Positions 3,591-46,013 of a stretch of 64,000 nt of DNA are shown piece by piece (the first letter of the stretch is position 1; each line of letters starts with the position of its first letter). The notes beneath the pieces are model-generated. The model saw nothing but the letters and a program-made list of their open reading frames with translations. It was not told the origin of the DNA and did no database searches. The stretch lies in assembly GCA_000310025.1 (NCBI GenBank), contig FN649729.1, positions 3,779,912-3,843,911 of the forward strand, read 5' to 3'. The position numbers and the translations under genes were made by a program. The stretch comes from Ectocarpus siliculosus (taxonomy: Eukaryota; Sar; Phaeophyceae; Ectocarpales; Ectocarpaceae).

Positions 3591-5489
3591 TGAACACAAT
3601 GCGATGCGGTATGCATTACGGTAATAACAGTCAAAACACGGGCGTGGAGAATGGGTGAACTTCGGCTGGGAGCGAGAGCTCGAGATGACAACGCTCTTCA
3701 GCGCTTAATCTGTACAGTCAGACTAACCCGCTACAGAGTCAATACATATCTACTCGTTTAAATTGCGCACGCTCTCTCCCTCACCTCCCGTCGCGTTCGC
3801 CATGCTGTACGGCGTGGCCGCTCCTATGGACGCCACCATTTCCAGCATCTGGTCTTGTGTCACCACACCCCCGCCTTCTCTGGCGGCATCAAACATGTTC
3901 AGCGTGAGGGCCTTCCACTCTTGGCCCCCAGCGTAGGAATTGCCGACGGAGTCCTTCAGTGCAGACGACCTCCCTTGACTCTTCGTGGCCTTGTTGGTGC
4001 TGTTCCTAGCCGGGATGGAGAAAACCTTCTTCTTGGTCGCGCCCTTTAGTTGTTTCTTCTTGAAGACGTAGTACAGGACACACTCGTGCATTTTCGCACG
4101 AGCTTTGACGGCCGCGTCGATAATCTCTTGCCACTTGACCGGCGGAAACACTCTCCCGTCCAACGCCACGACCTTGTCTTTGCCATCGTCGCCTTTAAAT
4201 GCCGGGCTCTCTCTCAAGCAGTCCATCGCCGCCCTGACTGCTGGCGCACGCTTCACCGCCAACTCTCTGCAACGGTCCCTTTCTGTGTGTGATTTCTCGA
4301 TGAAATGCGATTCGATGTCGAAGATGGCGACTTCACGAAGCTGGGCAATCGGTTCCAGCTTTTCTATCGTGCTCGAAATGACCCTTTTCGTCAACGTCTT
4401 GTAGAGACGATTGGACACCTCCTGCCGCTCGTCCAAGCCGATTCGCGCAAAAGTGTCAGCGCCGAGTGAGACGGAGAATAGCTGGGATACGACCCTCATA
4501 TCATTGCGCGAATAACTCGACACCTCCGTCAGATGATCTACCGCGAGGAACTGGTACTTGTCGTTGCCGGTGATGAAAAAAATGGGGGCGATACGGCGAA
4601 GGCCTCAAGCCCCGGGTCATGTGTCATGTTTGACTCGTACCATCATGGCAAAGCACCGAGTCTATTTTTAACTTCAAGACAGACGTACTTGCCCAATCGA
4701 AGCCCAGATTTTCTATAAATTGTTATGATAGCCTGACCCTGACCTAGCGTGGTTGTATCGGGCATTTCCATCGCATCTTTGGATGGGGATCGTGTATCCA
4801 GTGGATGTACATGCGCAACATGCACCAGCGTGCGTTCGAACCCCCAGGCGTGGGCTCTCCTGAAATTTGAATTTTGAACACACCATGCTTATCTCCTGCC
4901 GCACTAAATCGCCTCAAACCTTTTGCATTAGGTGTCAGTGAGACCTAGGTATATGTCGGCAGCATAAGTAGGCTGCAAGACGCCAACCTTGCGTAGAGGT
5001 CGGTTCGCGTGTGAAGCTTCCTCGCTGATTTTGGAGCTGCTGCAGTGTGGTACGCTCTGGCTAAAGATCAAATTTCTCACCCTACCATGTGTTTCTGGGC
5101 GTATAAAACATACCCTACTGTGCTCTTGCATCGTGTTAACATATCTCTCGTGTTGTCTGGGCAGATTAGCTTCTGGTTTGCCCTCTAGAGCCGGTCCTGG
5201 GTGTGGAGGTCTGTTGCGCCGCGAGCCGCCTCATCAGAGGGGTTTCCACAGGGGGCTGCTTTCCCGTTGGAAGCTTTTTTTCTCACACTTACTTTTTTTT
5301 TTTTCAGTCGTGCAGCACTGGGAAGTACTGCGATCCCCCCCCGCCCCCTTAACCTTCCTATTTAGTACCTACGTACGTACCTACTGTCGTACGCAAAATA
5401 AAAATGCCGAAAAAATGTTTGTCAGCCATTGATTGGTCGAGGGGCTACAGTCCCTCCAAATAATATGAGCTCCATGCCAGACAAAGGGT

Positions 5490-18141: not shown

Positions 18142-21139
18142 TCAACCCCTCCCTTTCTCCTCGCCCACGCCACCCCCCCCTGCTCTGAACGAGCCCGCGA
18201 ACACACTCCCCGCCGCGGAGTCCTGCGCAGCCAAGAAGCGGCGAGTGCTACCCCCGGCAGCCCCTTCGGCGGCGGTGTCCCCGTAGGTTGTCGCAGCCAC
18301 CGACATGGACGCCGAATCCCACCGCTCCAAAGAACGGGACCGGCTTTGCCTCACGTGCGCCTCCCCCTCCTGCACACACAAAAGGGGTTTAATGATCGTT
18401 GTTGTTGCTTTCAGTCTACGGGTAGGTAGGTGGCGTGGGGCGTTGGTTGGCCGGTGTTTTATAATCAAAAGAGCGTATCCCCCTTCCTGCGCACAAAGAG
18501 ATCATTCATTGTTGTTGGTGGCATTGGGGTATTGATTGTGGCCGCTTGTTGAAGCAAGGAGCGTACCGCGTAGATTCAGCACCGGGGTTTTAAGCAACAG
18601 CATCACCAATAACAACAACAACAACAACAACAACAACACAACCATGTCTGCGACACAGTCGAGTAGCAGCAGCCCATCGGCATCCATACTGACCTCGGCG
18701 ACACACCGCCAAGCATTGCCACCACCACCAACACAACCATCTCGGCAACACGATCAAGCAACGGCAGCATCACCACTACAACCCAACAACACCCACCCAC
18801 GCCTGCGACACAGTTTCCTAACAGCAGCCCCAACAACGCCCATCAGCATCCACACTGACCTCGGCGACAAGGTTGCGGAGCTCCTCCTGGGCGGCGCTGG
18901 CACCGGGCCCGAAGTCCGCCGTAACGTGATCGAACGCGAAGGACGAGCGGTTCGGGACGGCGTCCGAACCCGCCGTGATGCCCATCGAGGCAAGCTCCCC
19001 CGGGTTCACGCCCTCGTTGAGAGCGCGCAGTGTTTCCGGGCCCATTTTCCATTTCTGACAAACCGTATCATGATAGCGGGGGGGGGGGGGGGGGGCATAA
19101 AAAGGTGTGATTGGCCGGCTAACAATTATGACCAAACCGTACAATGATGGGCGGAGGGGGGATGAGAGCGAATAATAAGATAACAATCGGTGAGAGGGCC
19201 CGTTCGGCGATTGGCCGTCTAATCATGTACGGCTTCGGCTATTTAGAAGGAATCGGTGCAGCACCGTTCATCGTCAGTCCGCCCGTCACGTTTGTTGACG
19301 TCGCTTGCCAACTCGTCAAGTTTGCTACACCGCACACAAAGTTGCACTATTCAACATTCGCATCAAGAGACACAGCAGTTCTGACAGCAGTCCTCGGTAG
19401 CATCAAAAATTGTCCATGCAACAATGACAGACAAGACACGTCTATTGTATGCTTCCCGGGCCGGTGTCATCAGGAGACGGCTCAAAAACGCCCCCGCACC
19501 TACCGAACCCTATAAAACAAAAAACGGCCGAACCCCTGCTGTACCAACATTAACGCTACCAAGACTCTTACCGGACACGCCGCTGCTACGAAAGGGATTG
19601 CGGCACCACGATATACTACTTGTGTGCTGCGAAGACCATGAACGTCTATAATAACCCTTAACCCTAATAAACGCCAACTCTGCATCAAAGCAGCGGCGCA
19701 CCCGCTACTACATACTCAACGGGCTTGACTGATCGGTCGACTGACTTACATGGTTCGCATCGTCCCTCTTCGGGCCGAGGACCTCCTGAACGTCCGTGTA
19801 GCCGCCGGGGGTCGGGGACAGCTCTTCGGCCCTCGCCCGGGCCTTGATCTCGTCGAGCCGCTGCAGCCCGGTCTCCGAGGTGAAGCCACGGTCGAACTCT
19901 GCACACACAAAGATAGCAACAACAACAACACCAACAACAACAACGGAACCAAAATGTGCTGTGTGACCAAGACCGGCAAGAGAAAAACGTGCGGTAGAGC
20001 GGTAGTACTAAACGTTCACGCGCACGAAGCACATGCATTGCAGCCACTGCATTATTTTTTTTGCACGTGCTTCGTAAACTACTGTAGATGGGCGACGATC
20101 ACAATTTTGGCAACTTGTCCCATGTGGAGCAGTCCCATGTGGAGCAGGATCATCCGCACAACAAGCAGGGGATCGACCTTGCTGTGACCAATCGAGACGT
20201 GAGTCTCACAGAAACAGAAAATCAACAGGACGCGTACACCGGCACAACGAAAACAAAAAAATGGGGGAGAAACACACAGAAATACATGCCCTCCACAGCC
20301 GTAGGTGTTGGTTTCTAAGCAGGCTCTTTGCGCGTTGTTGCATGGCCTAAAAAAGTAAGTGAACCAAACGAGGCCCATCTGCCTGGCCATGAGCAAAAAG
20401 CAACGCCCAGTTAGAAGAGGTATCAAGGCGAGTCGCCCCAAGCAATGCTTGGCCATCTAGCACAAGCAACCGAGAGGATGATCGTACGTCCTATCCTCTC
20501 TTTTTGGTTGCTATACATACCTCTGGCGTGGTGGCCGACGGTTGGGCGGAAGTTGTGCTCCAGCATCTTGATGAGGGTGTCCAAAGACCATGTAACGCAC
20601 GGCACCTAAAATTAAACCGAAAAAAATGACGACGTCAGGGCCAGAGACAAGGGCAAGACAATAAGATGGGGGTGAATGGAGAAATGAAAAACAAACAGAG
20701 TACACTACGGACACGACGAGATCAGAGTGGAAGCATACGCTCGCTACCCACGCACGCGACACGCAACAAAAAAAATGGAAAGAAAAGCCGCCATCACGGC
20801 CTACGTCTCTATCTGCTTCGTCATGCGACGACAGCATCCTGCATACTTAGTAGACAACAGCGACAACGAACGATGACATCGGCATCGGCAGCCGGGGTTA
20901 CGGTAGCAGCAACAGCATCACCAACAGCAGCAGCAGCACCATCACCACCACCACCACCACCACCATCACCAGTAGCAGCAGCGCGGCAGACACAACATGT
21001 AGTAAGCGAAAATCACAACAGCAACCGTAGCAATAACATCAAACTCAGCAACAGCACCGTCGACCACAACCGCCTGCTACCGCTGCACCAGAAACAACAA
21101 CAGTAGCATCAGCAGCAGCTGCTATCGCTGCACCAAACA

Positions 21140-21174
<35 letters not shown>

Positions 21175-24100
21175 CCAACCCCAACGCTAACAACATCACC
21201 CCAACACACCTGTATGATGATGAGCCAGAACGCGCTGCGGCTCATGAGCTGCATGGCCACGTAGTAGAAGTCGTAGGCGTACGACACCAAGAGGGAGTAG
21301 AGCGAGATGAAGGAGAAGAAGAGGGCTATCGATCCCCACCAGAAGAACCAGCTCTGGTAATTCCATGTCTGTGTTCCGCCAAACAAAAACCATACCATCC
21401 ACGTTTCCGCGTTTGGAGTTCCGCACAAGGATCGGGAAGAAGGGGAGTGAGTGGTCAGGAGGAGGTACCGTTGTAGCTGCTGGCGCTACGTTCACAGGCA
21501 TCGAAATAACCAGTATCCCACGGTCGTACAGATCCTAAACATAGCATTAGAAAAAAAAAAAACGTTGGAGTATGCTACGAGATTCCGCCAAAAATATGTC
21601 GGCAAATCAAACTCCTTGTCATGATACACACACGCATGCTACAGCATGTATAGGGTGTGTCGATACACGACACACAAGAATAAATACGAAATTATTTTAG
21701 GTAAGTATTTGATACATGCATATTGAGGCACACAAATACATGTGGAGGCCCAAGCACAGATCATCGGCGACGAAATCTCACGTTGGTCATGTTGAAGACC
21801 TTCATCATCATGGCCATGATCAGGCCGGCGTACACGGTCGTGCCGAACACGTACAGCCCGTCCCCGTAGCCTCTCTCCGCCCAAACCGTCGTGGCGTCCC
21901 TGTAGGCCGCCAGCGGCAGGAAGAAGACCGTCAGCGAGTCCAGGATGGCCTGGCACACCCACTTGGTCATCGTCTGCCGAAGGCAGAGGGGTGTTCGAGT
22001 GTGCGTGGACGGTGACGGGTGCAACATTGGAAATAGTAATGAAATTGGGAAGATTGGAGGTCATGGCAGGAGCGTCCCCAGGTGTGTGTTTTACTTGTTC
22101 GTGCGTGTCCCCGTGCGGTGAAGCGAAAAGTGACCAGAGCAAGGGACCGCCGCCGTCCGCAAAGGACAAGGGGTGTTCGAGCGTGTGTGGATGGTGACGG
22201 GTGCAACATTGAAAAGAGGTTAGGGTTCACGCGGACACATTGTATTTAGGAAGGACCACTACTACTTCAGGAGCGTTCCGAGGAGGGCTTTTATTTTTTG
22301 TGTTGTATGTGACAAAACTTGGCGAGAGAAAGGGGGTCAAATGATGCCAACACATGGGGGCGAAATGTTGGTATTGTAGTTTGTTCCCGGGATGAACGGC
22401 GTACCGCTACAAAATCTTCTCTATCCATCGTCACAGAGCTGGCCCAAACCATGGCCTGGCACACCCACGATCGCCAGAGGGCCATCAGAGCTCCCCAGCA
22501 ATTCCATCCAACAAAAAAACACAAGGCCGATGTGACGACCCCACCCCCCTTATCCTTCCTTCCATACGACAAGCCAAATACCAAATACCGGCGGTGTTTC
22601 GCGCTTGGTGATGCGAGAGCCTGGTCCGGTGAGAACCCGGCGTGCTCCGTCCCACCTTCTGAAGGGATGCGAGCAGGTCAATGGTCTAACGACTACGGCA
22701 TGCAGGAACTATTCGCCCTGCCGCGTCCCGGCCTACCTAGATGCTATCTTCGAAACACGATATACATCATGGCATACATGACCGTGAGACTAACCCCCGC
22801 CCCCCGCCCCCCGCCCCTTCCGTTCCGTTCCGTTCCCGGTGCGTACGTGTCCCTCCCACTCACCCTGAGGTTAAGGTCCATGCCGGCCCGGCCGACGGCG
22901 TATAGCTTGTGGCACTCCGTCGCGGTCTGGTTGCCGACGTCCTTGTCGAAGATGCCGATCAGCAAGATGGGCATGGCCGTGAAGAAGTTGAACCCAGAGT
23001 ACACCAGCGACTCGAACAGCGACTTGAGCACGTTTCGCGGTAGTAGGAAAAAGTCGAAGAAAAGAGAGTGCGACGCCGGGGGGGGCACGTCAATACCACA
23101 CGAAACGGTTGGGAGTAGAGGGCGGGGCGCGCACGCGCCGACAAAACAAGTTCAGAGGAAAAAAATATAAAAAAGGTGGTCACCACCACCTCCAACTTGA
23201 ATATCACGTACTGCCGTAGCAGGTTTGGGTTATTGCGGCCTTGCTGCTACTGCGCCGCTCGGGTCCGAAACCGAGTGCCCATCAGGATGGACATGACCGC
23301 TTGAGAAAGTGGGAGCTCTAGCAGCGCTCGAGCAGCGACTGCGGCAGAGCCGTGTGGTGTCATTCCGTGGTCGATGGGACGGGATTCCGAAAAGCGATAT
23401 GTACCGCATTCCACATTTGAGTATTTTCAACAAAAAACAAGCATGGCGTCTCGGGACGCATCAAGTCGGAGACAGGAGCAAGGCAGGAGAAAACGCTGAA
23501 CTTTTCCAACGGAAATTACAATAAAAAAAAAAGCTACACACTTACGTACAATCAGCTTCATAAAAAAAAAAATAGCAACAAAACAACACACGGAAATCCG
23601 TCGGGAGGGGGCTCGAAGTCCGAGCAGGGCGAGACAACAACCAACAGCGGTGTCGGCAAAAAGACTTCACGCATCCCCTTCGACTATGGTATTATCTCGA
23701 ACGGTGGTATTTCTGTGAGGTTATGTATACTTTCTAAAAAAGAGGGCAGGAACTCTTGAACCACCGAAACACAGAAGACCCCACCATTCACAGGAGACAA
23801 GAGCGTCAGGCCAAGAGAAAAACACTCACCTGGCCGCTGAACCCGGTGTAGAAGCAGAAGTAGAAGAGGCAGAACGTCAGCACGAAGTTTTTGTAGAAGC
23901 TGTACAGGATCACCTGCTCAAGTCGAAAAGGTTTTACGGCAAAGGTCAAGGCTAGCATAGCGTTCTGGAGCCCCCTCGTGTGTTTGGCCGGGCTATTATA
24001 GCTCAGCGTGAGCGTCGCCGTGGGCACGTTGCAAACGTGGATTTGGTGGCCACATCTACGGTACCTTTGTGGTCGTCTTCGTATAGCACGGGCTCGACCG

Positions 24101-27100
24101 TCACCTTCTTCAGCCCCATCTTGCCCCCGAAAACACTATACAAATACAACCTTTGGTAATGGCTAGATCAATATTTGGAGAGAAAACCGTCCCTACATGG
24201 AACAGACCCACGCATGCATGGAACAGACCCACGCATGTAGCGCATCGAGAGACTGGCAGCCCTGCAACCCCGCATCAACAAACCTTGCACACGCGGCGGT
24301 AATCCCAGTGGCCGTGCACCAGCATGAGCCTCTTCAGGAACCGGAATTGCGCGATGGCGAAGTCCGAGTTGTTCACCGCCTGCCGACCCTCTTTCCCGCT
24401 GATGCCCACCCCAATCTGCAGGAAACCAGCAGCGTGTGTGTTTTCATTTTTTGTTATTTGTACCGACCGGGCTAACCGGCTGACGAATGAAAAGACGCCA
24501 GTCTCAGCGCCGTTGAAAACACAAAATGCTTCTGAAGGCCACGACCTGGGACCCCGCGAGCGGGGGTCATGGGGGAGTCTATGCTACTGTGTGTGTGCAA
24601 TACTCGTGTAAACGCAAGGCCGCAGTCGTTAGACCATTATCCTCGCGTCCCTACCACGCCGAGACGGAGCGATATGCAGGGTTGTCGCCGGGCCAGGCTA
24701 TGTTTCATGTGTGCGTGTGGTGTCTGATACACCACAATTCTTGAGAGATTCCGTACGCAGATGTATCTTGCACACAGGCAGAAAAGAAGAAACGAAGCTC
24801 TTGTAGAGCACACGCTGACATGGAGATCACCGCTTTCTCCTGGAGTCCAAAATGGTGACCTCCGCTAATGCCGCATCCTACGCTACTTTGTACCCGCAAA
24901 GCAAAAAAAAAAAAAAAACACTTCCTCTTCTTGCCGAACATGCACTTCCTCCTGAATCACCCTGACGTCCTACCATACATGTCCTACCCGAAACGCAAAC
25001 AATAAATTAATCACTATCAAACCTAATGAAACACACACCACACAACACACAGCAAAAATCACTCAACTCACCAGATACACTCTTCGTGCCCGCAAAGCAC
25101 ACAACAAACTCTCCCCCTGCGTACCTGAGCCTCCTGAATCATCCCGACGTCATTAGCCCCGTCCCCGATGGAGAGGGTCACCGGCGTTGGCACCACCCCC
25201 CTCTTCACAAGCCGGACGATCAGCCGCTTTTGCGCCGGGCTAACCCGGCACGCGATGACGCTCTTGCACATGCTCCCCAGCGTCAGAAGCATGCGCTCCG
25301 CCTCGGGGTTGCCAAGGACGTGGGCCTGGAGGGAGGGAGGAGGTAGGGCATAAACCGTGAGACGTGGGGCACATAGGCCTGGTTATCATCCGCCATAATC
25401 CGCCATCGACCATCCACTATCATCCATCACTCATTCGACCAAAAACAGGGAGGGGAAAGATACGCAAACATGAGACATATGTACAACCATGGGGTCTCAT
25501 TCATCATTTCTGCCGAGACTTTTCCGTCATACGTCCGGCGATCAACAGGGAGGGTGAGGCATGAAACCGTGAGACATTACCATGGGATCACCGAAGGTTT
25601 CTGTTTATGGGGAGGGTACACTTCTGTGATCGTCATCCATCATCCACTGACGAAAACACGGAGGGCAAGAGAGAAACCGTGAGACACTACCATGGGATCA
25701 ACCATGATTTCTGCTATGGTTTTCGGGGTGTCCACTGGCACAAGCCCGTGGGCCTGGCTAGCATCCACCATCCATCAATAACAGCGAGGGAGGGGGAATA
25801 ATCAAGAACCATGAGACACAAAATGGTGGGGTCTACTTTTGTCATTTCTGTTGAGACGCAAACCCTGGGATCACGTACATCAGTGCCAGCAAGGTGTACG
25901 GGGGTCTGTACTAGCACACGTGGGGGAATTACCGCGCATAGCCGCCGTTGTGCTTCATGCCGTGAACGACAACAACATCAAGAGCGATAGAATCTTTCGA
26001 ACCGTATCCTACAACATGAAAAAAGAACCCAATATTTTTGCCGATACGAGGTGTACTTGCTCTCTGTCTCTGTCTCCCGCCCTCTCCTCCGCCCGCCCAA
26101 CCACCACGCAACCAAAACCACCCCCCAAAAAAATACAAATCAACCCCCAAAACCCAACAATCTCTCACCAAGCTAGGCCCGTCTAGCACGAGCGCCAGGG
26201 AGTCCGCCGTCAGCTCCGACAGCGGCGGGGCCCCCTGAGGCTGCTCCAGCAGGGGGGTCGGCAGAGTGGCCGCGCCGTCCTCCTCCATGGTGGCCACGCC
26301 GCCCGTCCGATTGCGATCCCCCATGGAAGACGGGGCGGAAAGGCCACCCCCGCCCCCGTGCCTTCGAGATCTTCTCAGGAGACCCAGGGGGCTTTGCTTT
26401 ACCTGCCGGCAATAGGGGCATCATTTTTTTTTTTTGGTGGGGAGGGAGACACGTTGCTGGTGATTGGTTGTTTTGTTTGGTACGATGGTTCCAACATGTA
26501 AATGCAGTACCAAATTTCGTTTTTTTTGGGGGGGGAGGGAGAGGTTGGTGGTGATTGAATTGTTGTTTGGTTTCGGACGATGGTTGTGATATGTAAATGC
26601 AGGTACGCAAGAATTTTGTGAAAAAACATCCACCCTCTTCTTCCTGGCAACACTACCACGGTGAAATATAACGCCTATAATTCGAATATACAATAACAAG
26701 CGATGTGCCTTCCAACAAGCAAAACCTACCACTATCCATCACGTCCCATCATAAACCAGGCCATGTTCATATAACCATGGCCCAATGCAACTGCGTTGTT
26801 TTTGTGTGCTCTTTTTGTGTTTTTGTGTCCTCCTCACATGTCCCCAGAAGCGCTTCACCAGCCCGTCGTCTTCCACCAGCCTGTTGAAGTGGGTCATCAA
26901 GGCCCTGAGCTGGTTCACTACAGACTGCGGGTCCCCCTCCTTCTCCTTCAACTTGATGAGAGTCATCTCCGGCTCCAACAGCCGGCAGCTGGTTCATCAA
27001 ATGCGCCATTACGGAAGTGGTGGAGAGAGCAAACAACGGTGGTAGTAGAGAGGTATGGGGAGGAAGTGAGGGGGTACATTTAGTCCTTCCCGAAGCCTCC

Positions 27101-30100
27101 TGACACGAGATACCACTGCTACCACCAACACTCGGGTTCGGTAATGGTCGGCATGGTTTGGTATTCCCTACTATTATTGTATTTATCACGGTAACTTGGT
27201 TTTCACCAATTACCGCGGAATAACTATCCCGGAATTTATCGTGATAAAAGTGTACCGAGGGGGACCCTGATATTTTTGCAGAAGATATCTTGCGTAATGT
27301 CCATGGCCACCCCTAGGGGATATAGATGCTGCACTCCCTTCACTTCCATCCAACACCAGCAACAATCTTGACCGTGTCACCGGCGCTACCGTCCTATCTC
27401 TTTGCTCCCTCCTCGGCTTCGTGAGAGTGTTTTTTCCTTCTTGTGTACATGTACTTCGTGCTTGTTTCTTACTGTCCTGCCAGATGGGCACGCAACCCGC
27501 CGTCCTCTTCCAACCTAGATACAACCTCTGATACAACCCTTTCCTTCTTCACGAAGGCGTTCGGCAATAATCAGGGGGGTGGGGGTAGAGGTGATCACTG
27601 ACTAAATAGAGGAGCAAGAAAGTAGGGGCTTTGAAACAAGAACTCTCTGGCTCAAGGAGCCTGCGGGGGATCCACGGAATCTTGAATCACATAGAGTACG
27701 CGTGGCAACCGGTGTTTTCGGGCGCCGCCTACAACGACCCCGCCCACGCCGTCACACACGCCATCAACCTGCCCTTCCAAAAAGAAAAAGATGATGAAAA
27801 AGATGAAAAGGTGCCGATCTTCACGAAGGGTACAACCTCCCCAACGTCTGTCTGTCGAGGACGATTTCTCTTCTCGAAACATGACACAAAGCAAAAAAAT
27901 TCTGGAACCGGTTGTACGCAAGGAATTGCTATCCATGTATGCATATCCATATTCATGTGTTATTGGTCGATTTGATCGACAAGCAACCCCGCCACTTTTA
28001 AGCCTATTTATCTAGTGCGTGATTTGGTCTATCGTATATCGACGAGAATCCCCCGGCCACTACTAATACTATATTAGTAGAGGCTACATCCAGTGTGTGC
28101 TTCGGTCGATGTTTATCGACAGGTACCCCCCCCCCCCCCCGCCCGCGCGCACACGCGCTCACCTGTATCCGATGTTGATGGCCGTCTCCATCTTGTCCCC
28201 CGTGAGGACCCACAGCTTCACGCCGGCCTTGCCGAGGTCCGCGATCGTCGCTGGCACTTCGTCCTGCAGCTTGTCCTCGATGGCGGTAGCGCCAACAACG
28301 TCCAGGTCGGCCTGGGCGCAAGTGATCGCATCGTCGTGCAATAGCACGGCAGAAGAAGGGGCGGCGGGGTTATTGTACACGGGGGAGAGAGAGTGCGGTA
28401 TGGACGATTGTGTCACGAACACCAATAGCGTGGTGCAGCAGTAGCGCCGATAGCAGCTGAAGCGGTTACTTTGCCGCTCCGTCGTGTGAGTGAACTTCCA
28501 GGCTTAAGAGTTTCACATGCGTTTGTACCCATCTGTTAGACTTGGATCGAGACTAATCGCGCAAGCTCTAATCAGACCGCAACCGGCTGACGTGACTTGG
28601 TTCGAGCCTTCCCTTTCCCCCCCCTGACACAACAACCTTTATGGACGTTTCCGTACAGCTACTACAATTTGAAACCCTTTGAGACAGATGAAAACACAGC
28701 GCCAGCACCACAACCACCGCCACCAATAACAACACATGCTACTCCAATACCAAACAATTCGAGACAGCGACTGCTGCAGCACGGTGTTAACAACGCACAC
28801 CTCACCTCGACTTCCTTGGCCACCTCGGCGATCTGCTCCGCACGGTCGCCGGTGGCGATGGACGCCTTGCGGTACTTCTCGTACCACTCGTCGAAAAACT
28901 CCTGAAGGCAGCAGAGAAACACACACACGCGCAAACAAATGGGAGAACAGCAGGTTGTAAAAAAGAAAAAGAGAGGGAAAAATGATAAAATTGTCGGCGG
29001 AAAGCGCTATTTACACATTCGTTTTGCTCTGCTGGGTGGCCCATCTGTTGGTTCTTCTCGGCTCCCCCCCGTCGTCAGCAGTGCCCCAACCTGCTCTTCC
29101 TTCTCTAACTCCTCCGAAAGCTCGACAACCTAACAACAAAGCCAGAACAGCATGCATTACGTCCGAAATTTCGATGGCGTCTTACGAGAGGGTTTGTCCG
29201 CCCTTTCCACGTCTCACTTTCTTTCTTCTCTCTATTGTACCGTTTTGCTCCTTACATCAGAGGTATTTATTTTCCTTGCTTCCTTCTCCTCTCTACGCAC
29301 TTTCTCCTTTCCTCAGAGGTATTTCTTTTCCCTGCTTGCCTGAGACATCTCCTTCTTGGCCAGCAGGAGGGTGCGAAGACCGTCGTTGGAAAACACGCCA
29401 AGATGAGAAGCCACGGTTTCCTTGTCAGACCCCATGTACCCCCTCGAACGGTCCATGATGATGTTGTCCGCCCCCTTCACCGTACACAACAATGGATTAA
29501 GACGGGGGAGAGGGCGGGGGTACTGTTAGTCCATGACGATGTCCGAGCCCTTTACCAGTAGATAACCAGGGATACGGGATACGGGGAGGAGTACTCAACA
29601 CAGCCGTAGTCAACATGAGACCATTGCCTGTAATACCGGGACGGGGCTATTCAGGGGGATGGCGTACTCTCATGTTTTGCATGCCTTAGCGGATAGACCA
29701 TTGACCACGCGCCTTCGAGAGGACGGAGCACTGTTCGCACAGGACTTATCATCAGCCAATCGTTCCTTCCTGCTATTCAGGTGGGGGGGGGATAGTGGAA
29801 AGAAAAAAAAATGAGAAAAACAGAAGGCACCCTGTTCGTGATGAAGCTGTCTGTTCCCTACATACAACAGCAGCGGTCACCTGAGTTCACGGCAAAACCA
29901 AGGACCACAAAGTTACCGGTAAGCAAGGGTATTCTCTAAGGAAGACACCAGGCCTCCTCCCACTCAAGTCGTAGATATCTCCAATCCAATCCGGTGCTAC
30001 AATGCCATTACACACAGAGAGACCCCCTGCCGCACTACATGTCTCCTCCGACTCGTACCGCAAGAACGAAAATTTCCATCCTTTCCCTCATTCAGAAGCT

Positions 30101-31176
30101 ACCCACGAACACGCGCTATCTTTACGTATACTACAAAAAAAAAACAGGAAATAGATGCTGTGCTGGGCGCGGGGGTTGGGGGAGGTACAAACTTTTGCAT
30201 GCCTCTTCTAAGTGTTGTAAGACCATCGCGGGGAGGGGTATCGTACTCCGCTGCTGGTGTTGGAACTCCCGGCTCAGCGACCAGAAGACTACGTACGAGG
30301 AGGTTGCGAGATTTCACAACAACGCCCCGACGCGAGACACATATACACACACACGACCGACCCCAGACGTTGTACTGTACATACCTTGCAGTACAAGACG
30401 TACGAGCCGTCGGGAGCACGAACGACGACCGACATCCGCTTCCTCGTCGAGTCGAAGGGGATCGTGAGGATGAGGTTGTACGACAGCCGGCCCTTGCCGG
30501 TCACGTCCAGCTCCACCTTCCCCGGCGAGCGGTCCACGAAATTCACTCCTAGCGTCTGCCGGTGTTTTCGTGACGAAAAACACACAGGGAGAGGGTGTGA
30601 GAGGGGGGGGGCGGGGGGCGGGGTCCGGTAAACGAAAATTGCGAGAGGGGGGTAGGGGGGTTGGGAGGAATATTTTCCGAGAATGCCACTCCCAAAAATA
30701 AACTAAGGTTTCAACACAAGGAGTGGGCTGAGGGGGGGCACACCTTGGTTTCATCGCGCAATAGGGAGAACGCGGTATGCATTCAGATTACAGTGCCGAC
30801 TTCGCATTATCACGAGGACCCTCTGGCGAACACGGAGTCCAACCTCGACTGCTGAACTTCGCCATTGGCGGCCATGGTCATTTGGCAAGACACTCAACGG
30901 CGATCGCCGACCAGCGAGCGTTGACTCATCTTTACCATGTGCTGGAATGTCGTACAAGACACCAGCAACATGCTCACCGAACATGAGATACCCAGGGAAT
31001 TCGCGAAGGGTTTGGCTGTACGCACCAAATACCATGGGCGAGTTGCACACAAACACAGAAACAAAGTTGTGCCCAACTAATCGTTTTACACCGGACGTTC
31101 GAAATTTCATCACTATTGCCAGCATGCCGTGCATCGTCCCCTGCACGCAGCCGACAACTAACCGTCAACAACAACC

Positions 31177-31223
<47 letters not shown>

Positions 31224-34200
31224 CACCCACAAAACAAGACTCCCTCCCGCGACCGATCCAATGACCCACCTTTCCCCCGTCCACCAACGCCTCCTCGTCC
31301 GGCGACTCCGCCTGCATCTGCTTCTGGCCCGTCTTCGGGTCTTCCTCTAGCACCACCGTGTGGTTCAGAGCCAGGCACAGCGCGAAGTCTAGCGGCGCGC
31401 TACCCTTCTCGGCGCCGGCGATGTTCGACGCCAGCTCGGATAGCGGGGGTGCGTCTACCGCGTGCTGGCCAAAACCATCGTGGGGTTGAAGGTAAGGGGC
31501 GGGCAAAACACATGAGGGAGGGGGGGGGGAAGAGATAGAGTGGGAAATGATGAGGGGCGAGGAGTGAAGTTTGGAGGGTGCGTGGTTCACGGCGATCGTC
31601 GAGAAAAAACAGACACAGCACGGGCTCGGGCAATCCGGGTGTTCCAAACATCGGAATATAACGCATGTAGATGGCTGACGCACAGGGAGTTAGCTTCTTC
31701 GCAACGGCAGCTGTTTTTTTTTTTCGTGCTACATTTATTATGGCGACAGTCCCCCCAATTTTTCGTTGCGAGACGTGTACTGTACTACACTTGGTGTCAA
31801 TGTATTTTTTCGTACAACTACAACCATCCAGGGTGACACAGGAGGGGGTAAACAGTGGTATGCATGGACATTTATCATTGTTGTTTTTTGGTCCAGAGTC
31901 CCCCCCGAAGAACAAACCAAAACAAGACGTACTTCAAAACACACAACACGCACAAACAACGGGCGACGTCACACACTGAAGACCCAAGAATGCCTGTTGC
32001 CTGATAACTACTATTTACTCAGTCCAACACAAGAATACCAAACCCGCACAAGCCTTCCGTGTGCACGTATACCTGGCAAATGCGCGCCTACAAAAAAGCA
32101 ACAAAAAAGCATAGAATCGACGCCTTCTCAGCAACGCTCTCACCGTCAGCTGCTGCGGGGTCATGAGGTCCTTGGACTTCTGGTCCAGCTCCCCGTATAT
32201 CACCCCGCCCACGCTGCAGCGCTTGAACTTCATGAGGTTCTGCGTCAGCGTCCCCGTCTTGTCGCTGAAGACGTACTCCACCTGCCCCAGGTCGGCCCCC
32301 ATATTCGAAGACCGCGCTTGGGCGGGGGTGTCCTGATCGCAGAGTGTGTCACACGGGACGACAGCGGCACGTCAGCGGACGAAAAAAGAGTCTTGCCACT
32401 TCCCCCGACATTTTTTCAACAGGCGGCGGAGGCCGAGGAACAACACGCACGAGCACGAAAACAACACCAACAGGGAGGCATAAAAAAGCGCCACCGCTCG
32501 AGAAAATATGGTCGTTGACAAGTCGAGGCTAAAACAAAAAAAAAAAACGCAAAAACTAGGAGGCATTTCTGATGCCTGGGTAAATGGGCTTTTTCTACAG
32601 AAACGTTCCTCGTACAAGTATATCGTGGCTGTCAACGGCCTGCAGAGGATTTAAAACGAAACGAACCGTAGCCGACAAGGGAGGACCTGCGGTTACAACT
32701 ATAATGAAGGGCGTCCTGCAGCCGAACACCCTTTCCTTGTAATTTTCCTCGGCTCCAATACTTCAATTCAACACCGTGATGGCATCTCGCGCTACGCGTA
32801 CCTCATATACTCTGAGCTATTCAGCTAATGCTGTTGCGCTAGTGGTTTGTATCTCGCCCCGTCCCAAGCCCCTTCGGCGATTGGCCCCGTGAAGGGCCCC
32901 ATCTATCTCTCTTACGCTTAGTAAGCCTTCTTCGGCATTATTTCGCTTACTGAAGATTACGCCCGTCAGTGGGGTGGGTGGTGGTGGGATGGGGGCAATC
33001 AGGCATGCAGCCAAGACCCGTATGCGTCGCCAGGCTAGAGTCGTCACGTACATACATACCCTCCCCGAAAAAAGGAGAAGAGACAGAGAGAAGCGCCATT
33101 CCGTCGGAGCTGGATAGAATTCCACCAGAAGCCAGGGGCAGCGGATAGCCCAAGGAAACCAAACCCCAAGATCAACATCGGTAACAAGCGGGGGAGAGCC
33201 CACTCCTACATCTGAACTCCATGCCGCTGCCCCTGGCCACTCGTGAAATTCTACCTAGCTCCGATGGAAGGGCGCTCGTGACTAGTTCCGCCGCCTTGGG
33301 TCGCACGGGTATACACACGCTCGTATGATACAAGGCGGCGGACCTAGTCACGAGCGCCATCCCGTCGGAGCTGGGAAAAACTCCACGAGCGGCCAAGGAC
33401 GCAGCGGGCAGCAAAGGCATCCCAAACCCAAACCTCTCATTCCGCTGCCCCTGGCCGTTCGTGAAATTCTACCCAGCTCCGACGGAAGGACGCTCGTCGC
33501 TAGTTCCGCGGCCTTGAGTCGCACGGGTTTACACACGCTCGTGTGATACAAGGCGGCGGACCTAGTCACGAGCGCCACCCCGTCGGAGCTGGGAAGAACT
33601 CCACGAGCAGCCAGGGGCAGCGGATAGCCCAAGGCACCCAAACCCCACCTTCGACATCGGAAACAAGCAGGGTAGAGCCTACTCCTACATCTGAACTCCA
33701 TGCCGCTGCCCCTGGCCGCTCGTGAAATTCTACCCAGCTCCGACGGAAGGGCGCTCGTGACTAGTTCCGCCGCCTTGAGTCGCACAGATATACACACGCT
33801 CGTGTGATACAAGGCGGCGGACCTAGTCACGAGCGCCATCCCGTCGGAGCTGGGAAAAACTCCACGAGCGGCCAGGGACAGCGGACAGCGGACAGCCGAG
33901 GCACCCTCACCACAAAGTATTCAGATCAACAGACGAAGTATCCACAACGCGGAGACATGAACGGGCTGGCCAACATGTTTCCGTCCAGGGCCGTGGGGTT
34001 AGGGCGCCTTAACAATACGTGCTGCCCCTGGCCGCTCGTGAAATTCTAACCCACCTCCGATGGAAGGGCGCTCGTCGCTAGTTCCGCCGCCTTGGGTCAC
34101 ACGGGTATACACACGCTCGTGTGATTCAAGGCGGCGGACCTAGTCACGAGCGCCATCCCGTCGGAGCTGGGAAAAACTCCACGAGCGGCCAAGGACGCAG

Positions 34201-37200
34201 CGGGCAGCAAAGGCATCCCAAACCCAAACCTCTCATTCCGCGGCCCCTGGCCGCGCGTGAAATTCTACCCAGCTCCGATGGAAGGGCGCCCGTGGCTAGT
34301 TCCGCCGCCTTGAGTCGCACGGGTTTACACACGCTCGTGTGATACAAGGCGGCGGACCTAGTCACGAGCGCCATCCCGTCGGAGCTGGGAAGAACTCCAC
34401 GAGCAGCCAGGGGCAGCGGATAGCCCAAGGCAACCAAACCCCACCACCGACAGTGGAAACAAGCAGGGTAGAGTCTACTCCTACATCTGAACTCCATGCC
34501 GCTGCCAGTGGCCGCTCGTGACATAGTTCCGCGCGCCGTTGGAAGTCGGCACGGGTATACAAACGCTCGTGTGATACAAGGCGGCGGACCTAGTCACGAG
34601 CGCCATCCCGTCGGAGCTGGGAAAAACTCCACGAGCGGCCAAGGACGCAGCGGGCAGCAAAGGCATCCCAAACCCAAACCTCTCATTCCGCTGCCCCTGG
34701 CCGCTCGTGAAATTCTACCCAGCTCCGATGGAAGGGCGCCCGTGGCTAGTTCCGCCGCCTTGAGTCGCACGGGTTTACACACGCTCGCGTGATACAAGAC
34801 GGCGGACCTAGTCACGAGCGCCATCCCGTCGGAGCTGGGAAGAACTCCACGAGCAGCCAGGGGCAGCGGATAGCCCAAGGCACCCAAATCCCACCACCGA
34901 CAGCGGAAACAAGCAGGGTAGAGCCTACTCCTACATCTGAACTCCATGCCGCTGCCCCTGGCCGCTCGTGAATTCTACCCAGCTCCGATGGAAGGGCGCT
35001 CGTCGCTAGTTCCGCCGCCTTGAGTCGCACGGGGATACACACGCTCGTGTGATACAAGGCGGCGGAACTAGTCACGAGTGCCATCCCGTCGGAGCTGGGA
35101 AAAACTCCACGAGCGGCCAGGGGCAGCAGAGATGGATAATGCACCCCACGCCCCACCGCGATGGCGATGGAGCAGTATCAAAAGAGGGCATGTACCGCCC
35201 GAGGTCGCGCCGCAAGTGCCCCAAGTACTACCGCCGCTAGGGTGCGGAGCCTTGAGATCCCGCTGCATCAGCTGGTTGTCCTGCTTGTCTCCGATGATAG
35301 CGGTGGGATTCGGGTGCCTTGACTTCATTCACTGCCCGTGGCCGCTCGTGGCATTCTGACGAGCTCCGATGGAAGGGTGCCCGTGGCTAGTTCTGCCGCC
35401 TTGAGTCGCACGGACATACACGCTCGTGTGATACAAGGCGGCGGACCTAGTCACGATCGCCATCCCGTCGGAGCTTGGAAGAACTCCGCGACCGGCAAGG
35501 GACAGCGGACAGCGGACAGCCGAGGCACTCTTAACCCCACCGCGATGGCGATGGAGAAGTATCCAGATCAACCGACGGAGTATCCACAGCACGAAGTCAT
35601 TGAGCTGCGGATGGCCGCCCATGAATTTCCGTCCTGGGCCGGTGGGGTTAGGGTGCCTTAACAATATATGCTGTCCGTGGCCGCTCGTGAATTTCTACCT
35701 AGCTCCGATGGAAGGGCGCTCGTGACTAGTTCCGCCGCCTTGAGTCGCACGGGTTTACAAACGCTCGTGCGATACAAGACGGCCGAACTAACCACGAGCG
35801 CCATTCCGTCGGAGCTAGGGAGAAATCCACCAGAAGCCAGGGGCAGCGGATAGCCAAGGCACCCAAACCCCACCATCAACATCGGAAACAAGCGGGCAGG
35901 GCCCACTCCTACATATGAACTCCTTTCGGCTTGCCCCTGGCCGCTCGTTGAATTCTGTCTAGCCTCGATGGAAGGGCGCCCGTGGCTAGTTCCGCCGCCT
36001 TGAGTCGCACGGGTATACACACGCTCGTGTGATACAAGGCGGCGGACCTAGTCACGATCGCCATTCCGTCGGAGCTGGGAAGAACTCCACAATCGACCAG
36101 AGGCAGCAGATATGGATAATACACTCCACACCCCACCGCGACGGCCATGGAGCAGAATGAAAAAAGGACTACCGCCGGAGGTCGCGCCGGAGGAACCCCA
36201 AGCACTACCACCACTAGGGTGCAGAGTCTTGAGATCCCGCTGCATCAGCTGGTTGTCCTGCTTGTCTCCAATGATAGCGACGGAGTTCGGGTGCCTTGGT
36301 TAGCTGCTGCCCCTGGCCACTCGTGAGATTCTACCCAGCTCCGATGGAAGGGCGCTCGTGACTAGTTCCGCCGCCTTGAGTCGCACGGGTATACAAACGC
36401 TCGCGTGATACAAGGCGGCCGAACTAGCCACGAGCGCCATTCCGTCGGAGCTGGGAAGAATTCCACCAGAAGCCAGGGGCAGCGGATAGCCCAAGGAAAC
36501 CAAACCCCACCACCGACAGCGGAAACAAGCAGGGCAGGCCCACTCCTACATATGAACTCCGTGCCCTGCCATGGCCGCTCGTGAAATTTTGCCCAGCTCC
36601 GACGGAAGGGCGCCCGTGGCTAGTTCCGCCGCCTTGAGTCGCACGGGTATACACACGCTCGTGTGATACAAGGCGGCGGACCTAGTCACGAGCGCCATCC
36701 CGTCGGAGCTGGGAAGAACTCCACCAGCAGCCAGGGGCAGCAGATATGGATGATGCATTCCACACCCCACCGCGACGGCCATGGAGCAGAATGAAAAAAG
36801 GGCTACCGCCAGAGGTCGCGCCGGAGGAACCCCAAGCACTACCACCACTAGGGTGCGGAGTCTTGAGATCCCGCTGCATCAGCTGGTTGTCATGCTTGTC
36901 TCCAATGATAGCGGCGGAGTTCGGGTGCCTTGGTTAGCTGCTGCCCCTGGCCACTGGTGAGATTCTACCTAGCTCCGATGGAAGGGCGCTCGTGACTAGT
37001 TCCGCCGCCTTGAGTCGCACGGGTATACAAACGCTCGCGTGATACAAGACGGCCGAACTAACCACGAGCGCCATTCCGTCGGAGCTGGGAAGAATTCCAC
37101 CAGAAGCCAGGGGCAGCGGATGGCCCAAGCCACCCAAACCCCACCACCGACAGCGGAAACAAGCGGGGCAGGCCCACTCCTACATATGAACTCCATGCCG

Positions 37201-40200
37201 CTGCTCGTGGCCGCTCGTGAAATTCTGCCCAGCTCCGACGGAAGGGCGCCCGTGGCTAGTTCCGCCGCCTTGAGTCGCACGGGTATACACACGCTCGTGT
37301 GATACAAGGCGGCGGACCTAGTCACGATCGCCATTCCGTCGGAGCTGGGAAGAACTCCACAATCGACCAGAGGCAGCAGATATGGATAATACACTCCACA
37401 CCCCACCGCGACGGCCATGGAGCAGAATGAAAAAAGGGCTACCGCCGGAGGTCGCGCCGTAGGAACCCCAAGCACCACCACTACTAGGGTGCAGAGTCTT
37501 GAGATCCCGCTGCATCAGCTCATTGTCCTGCTTGTCTCCAATGATAGCGGCGGAGTTCGGGTGCCTTGGTTAGCTGCTGCCCCTGGCCACTCGTGAGATT
37601 CTACCTAGCTCCGACGGAAGGGCGCTCGTGACTAGTTCCGCCGCCTTGAGTCGCACGGGTTTACACACGCTCGTGTGATACAAGACGNNNNNNNNNNNNN
37701 NNNNNNNNNNNNNNNNNNNNNNNNNNNNNNNNNNNNNNNNNNNNNNNNNNNNNNNNNNNNNNNNNNNNNNNNNNNNNNNNNNNNNNNGTGCCCCAAGTAC
37801 TACCGCCGCTAGGGTGCGGAGCCTTGAGATCCCGCTGCATCAGCTGGTTGTCCTGCTTGTCTCCGATGATAGCGGTGGGATTCGGGTGCCTTGACTTCAT
37901 TCACTGCCCGTGGCCGCTCGTGGCATTCTGACGAGCTCCGATGGAAGGGTGCCCGTGGCTAGTTCTGCCGCCTTGAGTCGCACGGACATACACGCTCGTG
38001 TGATACAAGGCGGCGGGGACCTAGCCACGAGCGCCATTCCGTCGGAGCTGGGTAGAATTCCACCAGAAGCCAGGGGGGCAGCGGGCGGCGAAGGCATGCC
38101 AAACCCCACCACCAACATCAGAAACAAGCGGAGCAGAGCCAACTCTTACAGCTGGACTTCATTCCGCTGCCCCTGGCCGCTCGTGAAATTCTACCCAGCT
38201 CCGACGGAAGGACGCTCGTGGCTAGTTCCGCCGCCTTGAGTCGCACGGGTGTACCCACGCTCGTGTGATACAAGGCGGCGGACCTAGTCACGATCGCCAT
38301 CCCGTCGGAGCTTGGAAGAACTCCGCGACCGGCAAGGGACAGCGGACAGCGGACAGCCGAGGCACTCTTAACCCCACCGCGATGGCGATGGAGAAGTATC
38401 CAGATCAACCGACGGAGTATCCACAGCACGAAGTCATGAGCGGGATGGCCCCCATGTTTCCGTCCTGGGCGGTGGGGTTAGGGTGCCTTAACAATATATG
38501 CTGTCCGTGGCCGCTCGTGAATTTCTACCTAGCTCCGATGGAAGGGCGCTCGTGACTAGTTCCGCCGCCTTGAGTCGCACGAGCGTTTACAAACGCTCGT
38601 GCGATACAAGACGGCCGAACTAACCACGAGCGCCATTCCGTCGGAGCTAGGGAGAAATCCACCAGAAGCCAGGGGCAGCGGATAGCCAAGGCACCCAAAC
38701 CCCACCATCAACATCGGAAACAAGCGGGCAGGGCCCACTCCTACATATGAACTCCTTTCGGCTGCCCCTGGCCGCTCGTTGAATTCTGTCTAGCCCCGAC
38801 GGAAGGGCGCCCGTGACTAGTTCCGCCGCCTTGAGTCGCACGGGTATACACACGCTCGTGTGATACAAGACGGCGGACCTAGTCACGAGCGCCATTCCGT
38901 CGGAGCTGGGAAGAACTCCACCAGAAGCTAGGGGTAGCGGATAGCCCAAGGAAACCAAACCCCACCACCGACAGCGGAAACAAGCGGGGCAGGCCCACTC
39001 CTACATCTGAACTCCATGCCGCTGCCCCTGGCCGCTCGTGAAATTTTGCCCAGCTCCGACGGAAGGGCGCTCGTGACTAGTTCCGCCGCCTTGAGTCGCA
39101 CGGGTATACACACGCTCGTGTGATACAAGGCGGCGGACCTAGTCACGAGCGCCATCCCGTCGGGGCTGGGAAGAACTCCACGAGCGGCCAGGCTCAGCGG
39201 ATAGCGGACAGCCGAGGCACCTCAACCCCGCCGCGAATAGCGATGGACAAGTATCCAGAGCTACAAACGGAGGTAGCGCCAGAGGGGGACCCAGCACTAC
39301 ACCGCCAGAGCGCGGGGTCATGATGTGGCTGGCCCGCATGTTTCCGCCGTTGGCCATGGGGTTTGGGTGCCATGGCTACACCCGCTGTCCGTGGCCGCTC
39401 GCGGAATTCTGTCCCGTTCCGGTGGAAGGGCGCTCGTGCCTAGTTCTGCCGCTTCGAGTCGCACGGGTACACGCACGCTCGTGCGACACAAGGCGGCGGA
39501 ACTAGCCACCCACCGCCATCCCATCGGAGCTGGGAAAAATTCAACAACCGGCGGGGGTCAGCGGATTGGAAGGCACCCAAATTCTGCAGCCAACATCAGA
39601 AACAGGCAGGGCAGCCGCTAATGACTCCGCACCCTCGCGCCGGTAGGGTTCGAAAGTTACTCCGCCGCGACCTCCGGCGGTACCTTGAGATCCGGCTGCA
39701 GAAGCGGGCTGTTCCGCTTGTTTCAGGCGTTGGTGGCGGGGTTTGGGTGCCATGGCTACATAAGCTGCCCCTGGCCAGTCGTGGAATTCCACCTAGCTCC
39801 CATGGAACGGTGCCCGTGCCTAGTTCCGCCGCCCTGAATCGCACGGGTATACACACGCTCGTGTGACACAAGGCGGCGGAACTAGCCGCGAGCGCCATCC
39901 CATCGGAGTTGGGGAAAATTCAACGAGCAGCCAGGGGCAGCGGATAGCAAGGAACCCAATGCCTGCCGCCAACGCCAGAAGCAAGCGGGGCAGCCCGCTC
40001 ATTACTCCGCACTCTGGTGAAGTTACTGCTGGGGGCTCCTCCATCGCCGCCGTGTGTTACAGTGACTTATCCTGATTGCCCTCATCCCATCACTCACGAC
40101 ACTGACTAGTGCAACCTTCAGAAAGCAGGTGCCGAGGAAAGGACTTTTGGCATGTGGAAGGGACATGAATAAATGAGGCACTTCACGCCTGCCCTCGCCC

Positions 40201-43200
40201 GAAGGGCTTGCAAGGGGGAGAGATACCAACCACTAGCGCAACAGCGAAATGGCCCTTTCCCGATACATATCTTTGCCCCCAAGTTGCGAATCCATTACCA
40301 AACGCTTTCGCTAGACCAACTGCTGTTGTCCGCCACAAAGCATCCAACAAACAATGCTCTCTCTCCATCTCTCTCTCTTGCCTGCCCTCCTCTTACTTTG
40401 ATTTTCTTTACCTGGGTCTCGTCGTGCATCACAATGTCTCCTCCCATACGACCATGATCTCCCTGTCTCTCTTCTTTTGCCTGCCCTGTTCTCACCTGGG
40501 TCTCGTCGCACATCAGGATGTCTCCGTCTATACAACCATGCTCTCTCTCTCTCTTTTCATACTTTGCCTGCCCTGTTCTCACCTGGGTCTCGTCGTACAT
40601 CAGGATGTCTTCGTCGATGAAGGCGGCCTGTATAAAGTTCACCATCTCAAGGGTAACGTACAAGCTGATCGGGACGAAGTTGTTGTACAGGATGAGGAAC
40701 GTGAACCACTGCCCCACGCTGCTCGAAGAATCGGAGGACTCGCAGTTGTCCCTGGCATACACACGTATACATATGCCGACCGCGGAAAAGGAAAATGTGC
40801 CATGACAGGGGTGAACGCGCAGGTATCCAGGAAAAGGTGAACAGCAGAAATAATAACGCATCCAGAAGGAGGCTTTCCAACCCCAAAACGTCGGTTTTTG
40901 GGAACAAAGACTGTCGTGGATTTCGAAAACTCCCATAACGCCCAAGCATGCAGATCTGCGACAGACACACTGATCAACTACGAGGACACAGATTTACCAA
41001 ACGCATGCAGGTCTACGACAAGCGCACACATGTACGAAAACCATGAACATGAAAAAAAACTGTCTTGGTTTTCGAAAACTTCCAAACCAACAGGCATACA
41101 ATTGGACGTACCTACGATGAGCGCACAGATGTACCATACGCATGAAGATCCACGACAAGCACACAGATCTACGAATACCATGCAGATCAGTGACAGGGTC
41201 CACGAAAACCACACACACATCTACAGCAGCCCACATATCTACAACGAGAGGGACACACACCTTGCACAACGCGTATTAATGATCACTGGAAGGGTCGAGT
41301 ATTCTGCTAAAGCGAGTCCTACGGACGCACGCCGATAAAACTGCAAAAAAATATATATTTATTTTTCAAAAAAGTATCGCCGGGGAAAAAAGCACGACAG
41401 CAGTCTTGAGGGAAGTTTCAGCGTTTTCAAACAAAAAAAACAAAACGGGATGAAAACCGTACCGGAAAAGCGGGACGGGGCTGTTGTCGGAGTCGTAGCA
41501 GAGGTAGTAGAGCTTGTCATCGTTCTCCGCCTCGAAGACCAAGTATCCCACCAAGGACAGGGTGGTCACGACGGCCATGCACGTGAAGATGACGAACATG
41601 ATCTTGTTCGTCACCTTTCGATCGAACAAAACATAAAAAGGGGTACAACAAAAAATAAAAATAGAAGAGAGAATAAGCATGTGAAGATCACGAACATAAT
41701 CTTGTTCGTCACCTTTCGATCGAACAAAAAATAATAGTAAGGGGGTACAAAAAAAAAAAAAAAGAGAGAGAAAATTCGCACGTAAAGATCACGAACATGA
41801 TTCTTGTTCGTCGCCATTCGAGCAAACAAAAACAAAAAAGGGGATATATGTATACGAGAAAAAAAACACATGATCTCGTTCGTCACCTTCCCACAAACAA
41901 AGAAAAAAAAAGCGGGTACAGAAAAGGGCCCTCAGAAGCGCCGGTTGAATAGTGCCGACGCCCGGTATAGTGCAGCTGTTTTGGGCGGGCATAGACGGAA
42001 TCACCAAAGTCACTCAGTACTTTGAATAGTGCCGGTCCCTCTGATTAGTGCCGGTATACTCGTAACGGTCTGGTCCATACCGGCACTACAGAGGCCCCCC
42101 CACTGTACAATAAAATAGTAAAAAGAGAGTATTCGCACGGAAAGATCACGGACATGATCTTGTTCGTCGCCTTCGAGCTATTTAAACAAAAAAAAGCGGG
42201 TACACTAGACAAGGTTGGCCAAATGAGCAGGTGCGGTAAAAGGGATGGTGAGAGGCGGGGTAAGCACTATTACGCGTTTTGCACGTGTTATTCACGGACG
42301 TACAGTATAGAGAGACCAACCAAAGTAGCCTCACACAAACAGGCGTGTTTCTTCACCTTGTCGAGTTTGCTCTGCTTCGAAGGCACGGACCGAGGGTCCT
42401 TCCTAGGGAAAAAAGACCAAATGAGTATTTCTTCTCTAATCAACACAACAGCCATACTCAAAACAGGCGTCCTTCTTTCACCTTGTCGAGGTTGCTCTGC
42501 TTCGAAGGCACGGATCGAGCGTTCTGCGCGATCTTCGACTCCCTTCCCGTGTAGGCCACCACCCCGATCGCCCACTTCGTGTTCCTCAGCCTCGCCCCCC
42601 GCAGCAGCAGGTTGCTCTGGTCCACGGGAACGTCGCGCGAGCCCGTCCCGCCCCCACCCCCCTCCCCGGAGTCATCTTGCGGGCCCCCCGCCCCGCCGTG
42701 GAGCGTTAGGGTGCCGGTGAAGAAGTGAATGCGAGCGTTGGGAGCTTCGTACTCCAGCTGGCAGACAAGAGGAGTACGAACGGGGGCGCTGGTGGTTTTC
42801 ATAGTTGTCGAGAGGCATACATTATCTAGAGGTCCCCCACGTAACCAGCATCCATCGTGGGCGACTCATTTTCACAAACAGGTAGGCAACAGGTGAAAGC
42901 TAGCGCTGAGAGGTTTGCGTTCCAGCTGTGAACGCGAGTGAAGCGGAGAACAAGTCCATGAAAGCAGTTAACATCTCACCACCAAACAGCGACAGCAGTA
43001 TCCACCAACACCAACACTACCAACAACAACAAACACCACAAACAACAACAACAACAACAACAACAATGACAACAAAAACAACAACAACAACATCAACAAA
43101 AATGACAACATTCAACACGAACCTCCATCCTGACGCCGTGCAGCTCCTCGGCGCTGGACCACAATGGCCCCGGCGGCTGCCCCGGCCGCGTGGGCGCACT

Positions 43201-46013: not shown

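Follow-up and report, generated by a model that had tools for sequence, protein, structure and literature searches.

A flippase gene and the copies in its introns

The window, a 64-kb stretch of the Ectocarpus siliculosus genome, holds on its minus strand a gene for a P4-ATPase (phospholipid flippase). Our exon model of this gene reads through 1184 codons without a stop, and the protein resembles solved flippases over most of its length. The best of these, 6k7g, aligns in two stretches (residues 29-743 and 837-1174, E 5.5e-218), and Pfam PF16212 also finds matches in the gene. A further last coding exon, predicted from an open frame alone, likely lies at about 19711-19898. The introns are mostly of one phase, 17 of the 20 in the curated 21-exon model being phase 0. 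At exon 10 (29340) the model uses an apparent GC donor, CAG|GCAAGC.

The introns of this gene carry tandem arrays, many of them at or near an exon. Because self-BLAST missed overlapping tandem matches, the copies were detected by diagonal scans combined with local alignments. The features are as follows, in the order in which the gene is read:

20521..46013, minus strand: the P4-ATPase (phospholipid flippase) gene, with 21 coding exons in the model, from the start of exon 1 at 46013 to the end of exon 21 at 20521
42337..42525, minus strand: end of exon 4 copied into intron 4; the unit, 42525-42461, is 44 nt of exon plus 21 nt of intron, and the copy is 42400-42337
41579..42204, minus strand: start of exon 5 copied upstream in intron 4; unit about 41674-41585
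41915..42108, no strand assigned: dispersed repeat (about 190 bp) lying within the array at exon 5
40902..41195, minus strand: array inside intron 5, away from the borders, found by diagonal scan and array detection
40410..40618, minus strand: end of exon 6 in three tandem copies, period 84-87 bp, with decoy donors at 40495 and 40411
33226..39944, no strand assigned: satellite in intron 6, about 7 kb of units of about 180 bp, each an imperfect palindrome, with a 100-base N gap inside
29451..29573, minus strand: weak copy of the start of exon 10 upstream in intron 9 (48 bp, 75%)
29245..29337, minus strand: intron-only array in intron 10, adjoining the end of exon 10 on the donor side and starting about 2 bp into the intron
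26425..26619, minus strand: intron-only array in intron 13 near exon 14, period about 95 bp, 30 to 50 bp from the exon
25334..25713, minus strand: array confined to intron 14, its end 8 bp short of exon 15
24948..25151, minus strand: short weak copy of the end of exon 15 in intron 15 (22 bp, 91%); the decoy donor itself is not alignable
21980..22218, minus strand: intron-only array in intron 18, offset 182, ending 13 bp from exon 19

The copies are direct and local, and they differ from each other by about 5-28%. The end of exon 4 is repeated over 65 bp at 89% identity and an offset of 125, leaving a decoy donor, AAG|GTGAAG, at 42356. At the start of exon 5, a 94-bp match (86%, offset about 100) is joined by three more junction-aligned copies, the set occupying 41775-41677, 41843-41778, 41920-41868 and 42204-42135, and three of the four decoy acceptors have their AG. 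The end of exon 6 is copied over 56 bp at 95% and an offset of 87, with a third copy beyond, so that downstream copies stand at 87 and 171 bp, and no stop interrupts the reading frame across them.

An earlier note on this DNA had placed border-spanning copies at exons 4, 5, 6, 10, 15 and 19 and intron-only arrays beside exons 12, 14 and 15. Exons 4, 5 and 6 do have clear spanning copies and exons 10 and 15 weak ones, but the array at exon 19 lies wholly in the intron, 13 bp off. The intron-only arrays near exons 14 and 15 are there; at exon 12, diagonal scans and array detection found none. The range of 60-125 bp that the note had given for the units was too narrow, since the offsets measured over 26 arrays (flippase and myosins) run from 54 to 319 bp, with a median of 123.

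In the single alignment with 6k7g the flippase is collinear over the junctions of exons 4/5, 6/7, 9/10, 10/11, 12/13 and 15/16, and no insert appears at the affected junctions.

Arrays and exon borders in flippase and myosin genes

For comparison we picked genes without regard to repeats. A genome search with the Pfam myosin head yielded nine myosin genes, and two 100-kb blocks were added, B4 (C4:2200001-2300000) and B15 (C15:4500001-4600000), comprising loci L009-L028. Exons were called by a self-trained exon finder whose training included Pfam-anchored myosin exons and the flippase. Two other approaches had been discarded: a first finder, for which the flippase was the sole training gene, joined too many genes, and a low-order scan for long ORFs retained just three. 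The finder places 51 predicted exons in frame with 51 anchored myosin segments and recovers 18 of 21 flippase exons exactly, an agreement that measures fit and not independent performance, as both sets were used in training. It still joins neighbouring genes in the two blocks. Independent support comes from the myosins themselves, in which 80 of 90 junctions are backed by a collinear alignment with one or more paralogs.

The final set consists of 100 introns (20 from the flippase and 80 from the nine myosins; 66.6 kb) with a median length of 494 bp. We left out introns shorter than 150 bp or longer than 9000 bp, the stretch of intron 6 taken up by the satellite, the 10 myosin junctions (of 90) that no paralog supports and all introns of B4 and B15, whose borders carry no homology check; one border of L029 was restored by hand. 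Low-complexity sequence (0.5-5.6% of bases) was masked. In the null model each array is placed at random in its own intron with overhang into the exon allowed, and an overlap means at least 8 nt.

Placed in this way, the arrays crowd at exon borders. These 100 introns hold 26 direct arrays, 19 of which lie within 40 bp of a border where 8.8 are expected (p<0.0001), and 10 overlap the border against 3.8 expected (p=0.0009). In the flippase, 8 of 10 arrays are that close (2.8 expected, p=0.0005) and 5 overlap (1.2 expected). The myosins alone give the same picture for proximity, with 11 of 16 arrays near a border and 6.0 expected (p=0.005), while their border-overlapping arrays are borderline (5 against 2.6, p=0.09). 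Raising the score threshold to 38 leaves 15 of 21 arrays near a border overall (7.5 expected), 10 of 13 in the myosins (5.1 expected, p=0.004; 5 overlapping against 2.3, p=0.047) and 5 of 8 in the flippase (2.4 expected, p=0.045; 3 overlapping against 1.0, p=0.07). The near-border excess persists when any one array-bearing gene is left out, and both sides are affected, 10 of the near-border arrays being donor-side and 9 acceptor-side. The remaining 7 of the 26 sit deeper in their introns.

Other forms of the test bear on the same DNA. The first, with unequal partner space, gave a weak signal: for donors 5 of 96 junction windows had a tandem match and 14 of 625 intron windows did, for acceptors 5 of 100 and 18 of 668; outside the 64-kb stretch the counts were 6 of 224 against 26 of 1621 (p=0.18). 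With matched windows, 20 of 215 border triples had a match, compared with 23 of 1004 mid-intron ones, and outside the stretch 13 of 176 compared with 20 of 868 (p=0.0015). When positions were shifted circularly inside each intron, 19 stood against an expected 10.1 (p=0.00025), and 13 against 6.6 outside the stretch (p=0.002). Two results are null. For genes outside the 64-kb stretch the junction window taken alone is not significant (p from 0.05 to 0.25, by test and threshold), and among myosin introns flanked on either side by strong exons, in an earlier predicted-exon set, 5 of 10 arrays were near a border against 3.7 expected (p=0.25), with 1 overlapping against 1.7. Chance similarity is rare: partners drawn from other genes reach scores of 30 or more in 0.000-0.002 of comparisons. 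We treat event placement as the main result because its borders are homology-checked; the successive tests share the same DNA and are not mutually independent, and the final form was chosen after earlier results, so that the p-values serve as guides only.

The earlier note had proposed that introns here grow by short tandem duplication at exon-intron junctions. The crowding at borders bears this out in part, and extends to myosins that were not chosen for their repeats; the contrast with mid-intron windows goes the same way, within the sampled genes. But the excess is about two-fold in a small sample and it is not exclusive, as the deeper arrays make plain; in the strong-exon subset of the myosin introns it was absent.

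Genes seem to differ greatly in their rate of arrays. At L029 (about 4201-4620 in locus plus-strand coordinates, the gene lying on the minus strand) the end of a myosin exon is present three times in tandem, and the finder called two of these copies as extra exons; in the one alignment made, these extra "exons" are absent from the best-matching solved myosin, 7dhw. L031, L032, L033 and L034 have one border-overlapping copy each, and L035, L036 and L037 have no array in their 24 introns of the final set. Blocks B4 and B15 hold one array in 46 predicted introns, some of which may be false, although paralogs of the flippase are present there. At least one array is found in 9 of 20 flippase introns and 15 of 80 myosin introns (p=0.02), an unfair comparison as the flippase was chosen for its repeats. 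A further border array, 97% identical over 65 bp, lies in B15 within a 5-kb predicted intron, over the length limit of the count for that block.

Why should arrays sit at borders? The copies may arise evenly and simply be recognised for longer, and deleted less, beside constrained sequence. Selection on the exon would hold one copy in place, and deletions reaching into the exon would be purged. By the same reasoning the exon-side copy decays more slowly, which could make arrays that overlap a border as much as about twice as easy to detect, and effect sizes of about two-fold are what we see. Two findings speak against survival and detection as the whole cause. Fully intronic arrays within 40 bp of a border are also in excess, if marginally (9 against 5.1 expected, p=0.046; in the myosins 6 against 3.4, p=0.09), and the crowding is not limited to diverged arrays: below an identity of 0.88, 11 of 16 are near a border (6.0 expected), and at or above it 8 of 10 (2.8 expected). 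As a sufficient cause we consider this rather unlikely, though it is the strongest of the competing accounts.

Somewhat less probable still is that exon edges are true mutational hotspots, at which a cause linked to transcription or splicing (R-loops, nicks or the step in composition from exon to intron) starts duplications. The excess on both donor and acceptor sides would fit, as would the finding that the least diverged arrays are the most border-biased. Inverted repeats in the same 100 introns show no such bias, with 1 of 6 near a border and 1.3 expected, and this too agrees with a hotspot for duplication. The marginal excess just inside the intron, together with the pronounced border preference among the least diverged arrays, hints at a mutational bias. 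The samples are small, however, and the bias of the least diverged arrays is confounded by the slow decay of the exon-side copy, since pairs that overlap a border change at a slower pace and seem younger than they are. Nor are tandem matches scarce away from genes: they occur in 29 of 740 intergenic windows, against 23 of 1004 mid-intron windows.

Local origin of the copies and their splice sites

Probes of the arrays at exons 4, 6 and 19 and of the L029 myosin border match their own locus only in the 189 Mb genome (match counts are lower bounds, very common words being skipped). Four of the five probed arrays are thus confined to their locus, and we take the arrays to be local duplications. 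The fifth probe, from the exon 5 array, matches at least 39 other places, solely through the stretch of about 190 bp between two of the copies; 40 of 229 candidates were scored, and the 39 other matches are at 73-85%. This dispersed repeat probably inserted between two exon 5 copies after the duplication, and its position would give a relative date, the insertion being the later event.

That the arrays themselves are dispersed elements, or errors of assembly, is extremely improbable. The dispersed repeat in the exon 5 array is the one thing that recalls such an element, and it is a separate insert. As for assembly, differences between copies of about 5-28% are unlike those of an assembly duplication. 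We also rejected an introner or other transposed element as the source: four of the five probes find their own locus only, and in the fifth it is the separate 190-bp insert alone that is dispersed.

Whole-exon duplication producing mutually exclusive exons was also considered and rejected. The 10 border-overlapping arrays each hold a single border with 14-54 nt of exon, within a detection reach of at most 60 nt into the exon.

Introns may also be born when an exonic segment with AGGT is duplicated in tandem, and we asked what such an origin would leave behind in these genes. Some features are compatible with it. Among 97 well-scored introns 66 are phase 0 and 41 have AG|G junctions, and paralogs have few intron positions in common: 25 of 257 comparisons between myosins, and for the alignable introns of the flippase one exact and two within three codons. 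This scarcity may reflect old divergence, later gains, or both. The signature expected of recent birth, however, is missing from the sequence itself. In register, exon ends match intron ends at 0.253 against 0.247 when shuffled (p=0.22), and exon starts match intron starts at 0.255 against 0.251 (p=0.31), in the same 97 introns, a test in which old introns could have lost the trace. Moreover, the copies stand beside one border and not at both ends of an intron. Birth of these introns by duplication is therefore a very remote prospect.

The earlier note was right that the copies leave decoy splice sites. In flippase and myosins together, the GT or AG is intact in 14 of the 15 copies with an alignable junction (lines of identity 1.00 over 30 bp are probes lying on their own flank and were ignored). 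All seven donor decoys score in the top 0-2% of intronic GT sites, and seven of eight acceptor decoys have their AG. With this degree of divergence, chance alone would leave most dinucleotides unchanged, so the intact decoys are, from the sequence, no sign of selection for or against them.

Could the copied borders nevertheless be kept because they yield protein variants? The strength of the donor decoys would suit such a role. So would the exon 6 copies, which are in frame at 87 and 171 bp, and the copies in L029 and L032 that the exon finder read as coding. Against it, the distance from decoy to true site is a multiple of three in 4 of 15 cases, with no preference. The best solved flippase (6k7g) and myosin (7dhw) also lack such inserts. 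We regard selection for alternative splice sites as quite unlikely.

Probable lengthening of introns at exon edges

The copies are direct and head-to-tail, and their source is local in four of the five probed arrays, as is typical of short tandem duplication by break repair. We therefore favour, as the probable explanation, ordinary duplication of this kind that is tolerated, and perhaps favoured, at exon edges and that lengthens existing introns. Short stretches of DNA, at offsets of about 55-320 bp (median 123), would be duplicated head-to-tail when staggered breaks are repaired or templates switched. A duplication within an exon would damage the protein and be removed by selection, whereas one that falls in an intron, or straddles an exon edge, would leave a complete exon and could be tolerated and fixed by drift. 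Each event would add about a hundred bases to the intron, and an edge-straddling event would leave a second copy of the splice site inside it. Windows centred 60 bp into exons are nearly empty of tandem matches (1 of 187 or 0 of 241, in two settings), as would follow if selection removes such duplications from coding DNA.

Neutral fixation on its own gives no reason for arrays to be commoner at borders, so this explanation needs an extra cause. It may be a bias in mutation, or copies next to constrained DNA may be better retained. It is slightly weakened by the behaviour of the flippase at the stricter score and by the three myosins without arrays.

How does this compare with what is known? 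Intragenic tandem duplication is an established source of introns (PMC3443670), with work by Gao and Lynch (2009) and Hellsten (2011) on intron-making duplication, as cited in PMC3443670 and PMC4974935. In the passages of these two papers that we draw on, the duplication is likewise short and intragenic and carries splice signals, but there a new intron is made from exon sequence, whereas here an existing intron is lengthened and the signature of birth is absent. The closest case is the RdRp of potato (PMC4974935), where, in the part describing it, the duplicated piece crosses the border between an intron and the next exon and brings splice signals with it. That duplication is a single case and gave rise to a new intron. 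Those described here affect several borders, in several genes, and their copies are apparently left in the intron. Novel intron positions in Drosophila, ascribed to sliding or tandem duplication, similarly involve duplicated sequence with a proto-splice site, but in the portion of PMC2891723 used here the duplications lie in coding sequence and create new positions, unlike those we describe.

The repair process itself has its own literature. Short tandem duplications from break repair, following induced breaks in mouse and human cells, are also short head-to-tail copies (PMC8355091, which cites Vaughn and Bennetzen 2014), but the account available from that paper makes no link to exon borders, and the units here are mostly longer than 100 bp. 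For Ectocarpus, a section of PMC12477816 gives an intron length of 524 bp, similar to the median of 494 bp here, and describes tandem repeats as relatively evenly spread over site classes. Among the matches listed in the open-licence literature, no earlier report presents border-seated duplication as a way in which introns repeatedly lengthen.

What makes introns long in some fairly compact genomes is an open question. If introns lengthen at exon edges, then intron growth and the appearance of new splice sites are one process, and copied borders will mislead gene annotation in such genomes, as they misled the exon finder at L029. A bolder idea, to which we give little credence, is that duplications in this lineage preferentially start at borders, DNA breakage being coupled there to transcription or splicing; introns would then grow from their ends inward, with each spanning step seeding a decoy. 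If true, this would be a self-driven source of both long introns and alternative splicing. Even the plain reading, duplication by break repair, provides a set of natural decoy splice sites whose predicted strength is near that of the true sites.

Intron 6 of the flippase holds tandem sequence of a different sort. In a genome-wide DNA search, in which match counts are lower bounds, its satellite had no match elsewhere; at least 23 direct matches (82-100%) and at least 23 reverse-complement matches (72-84%) all fall within intron 6.
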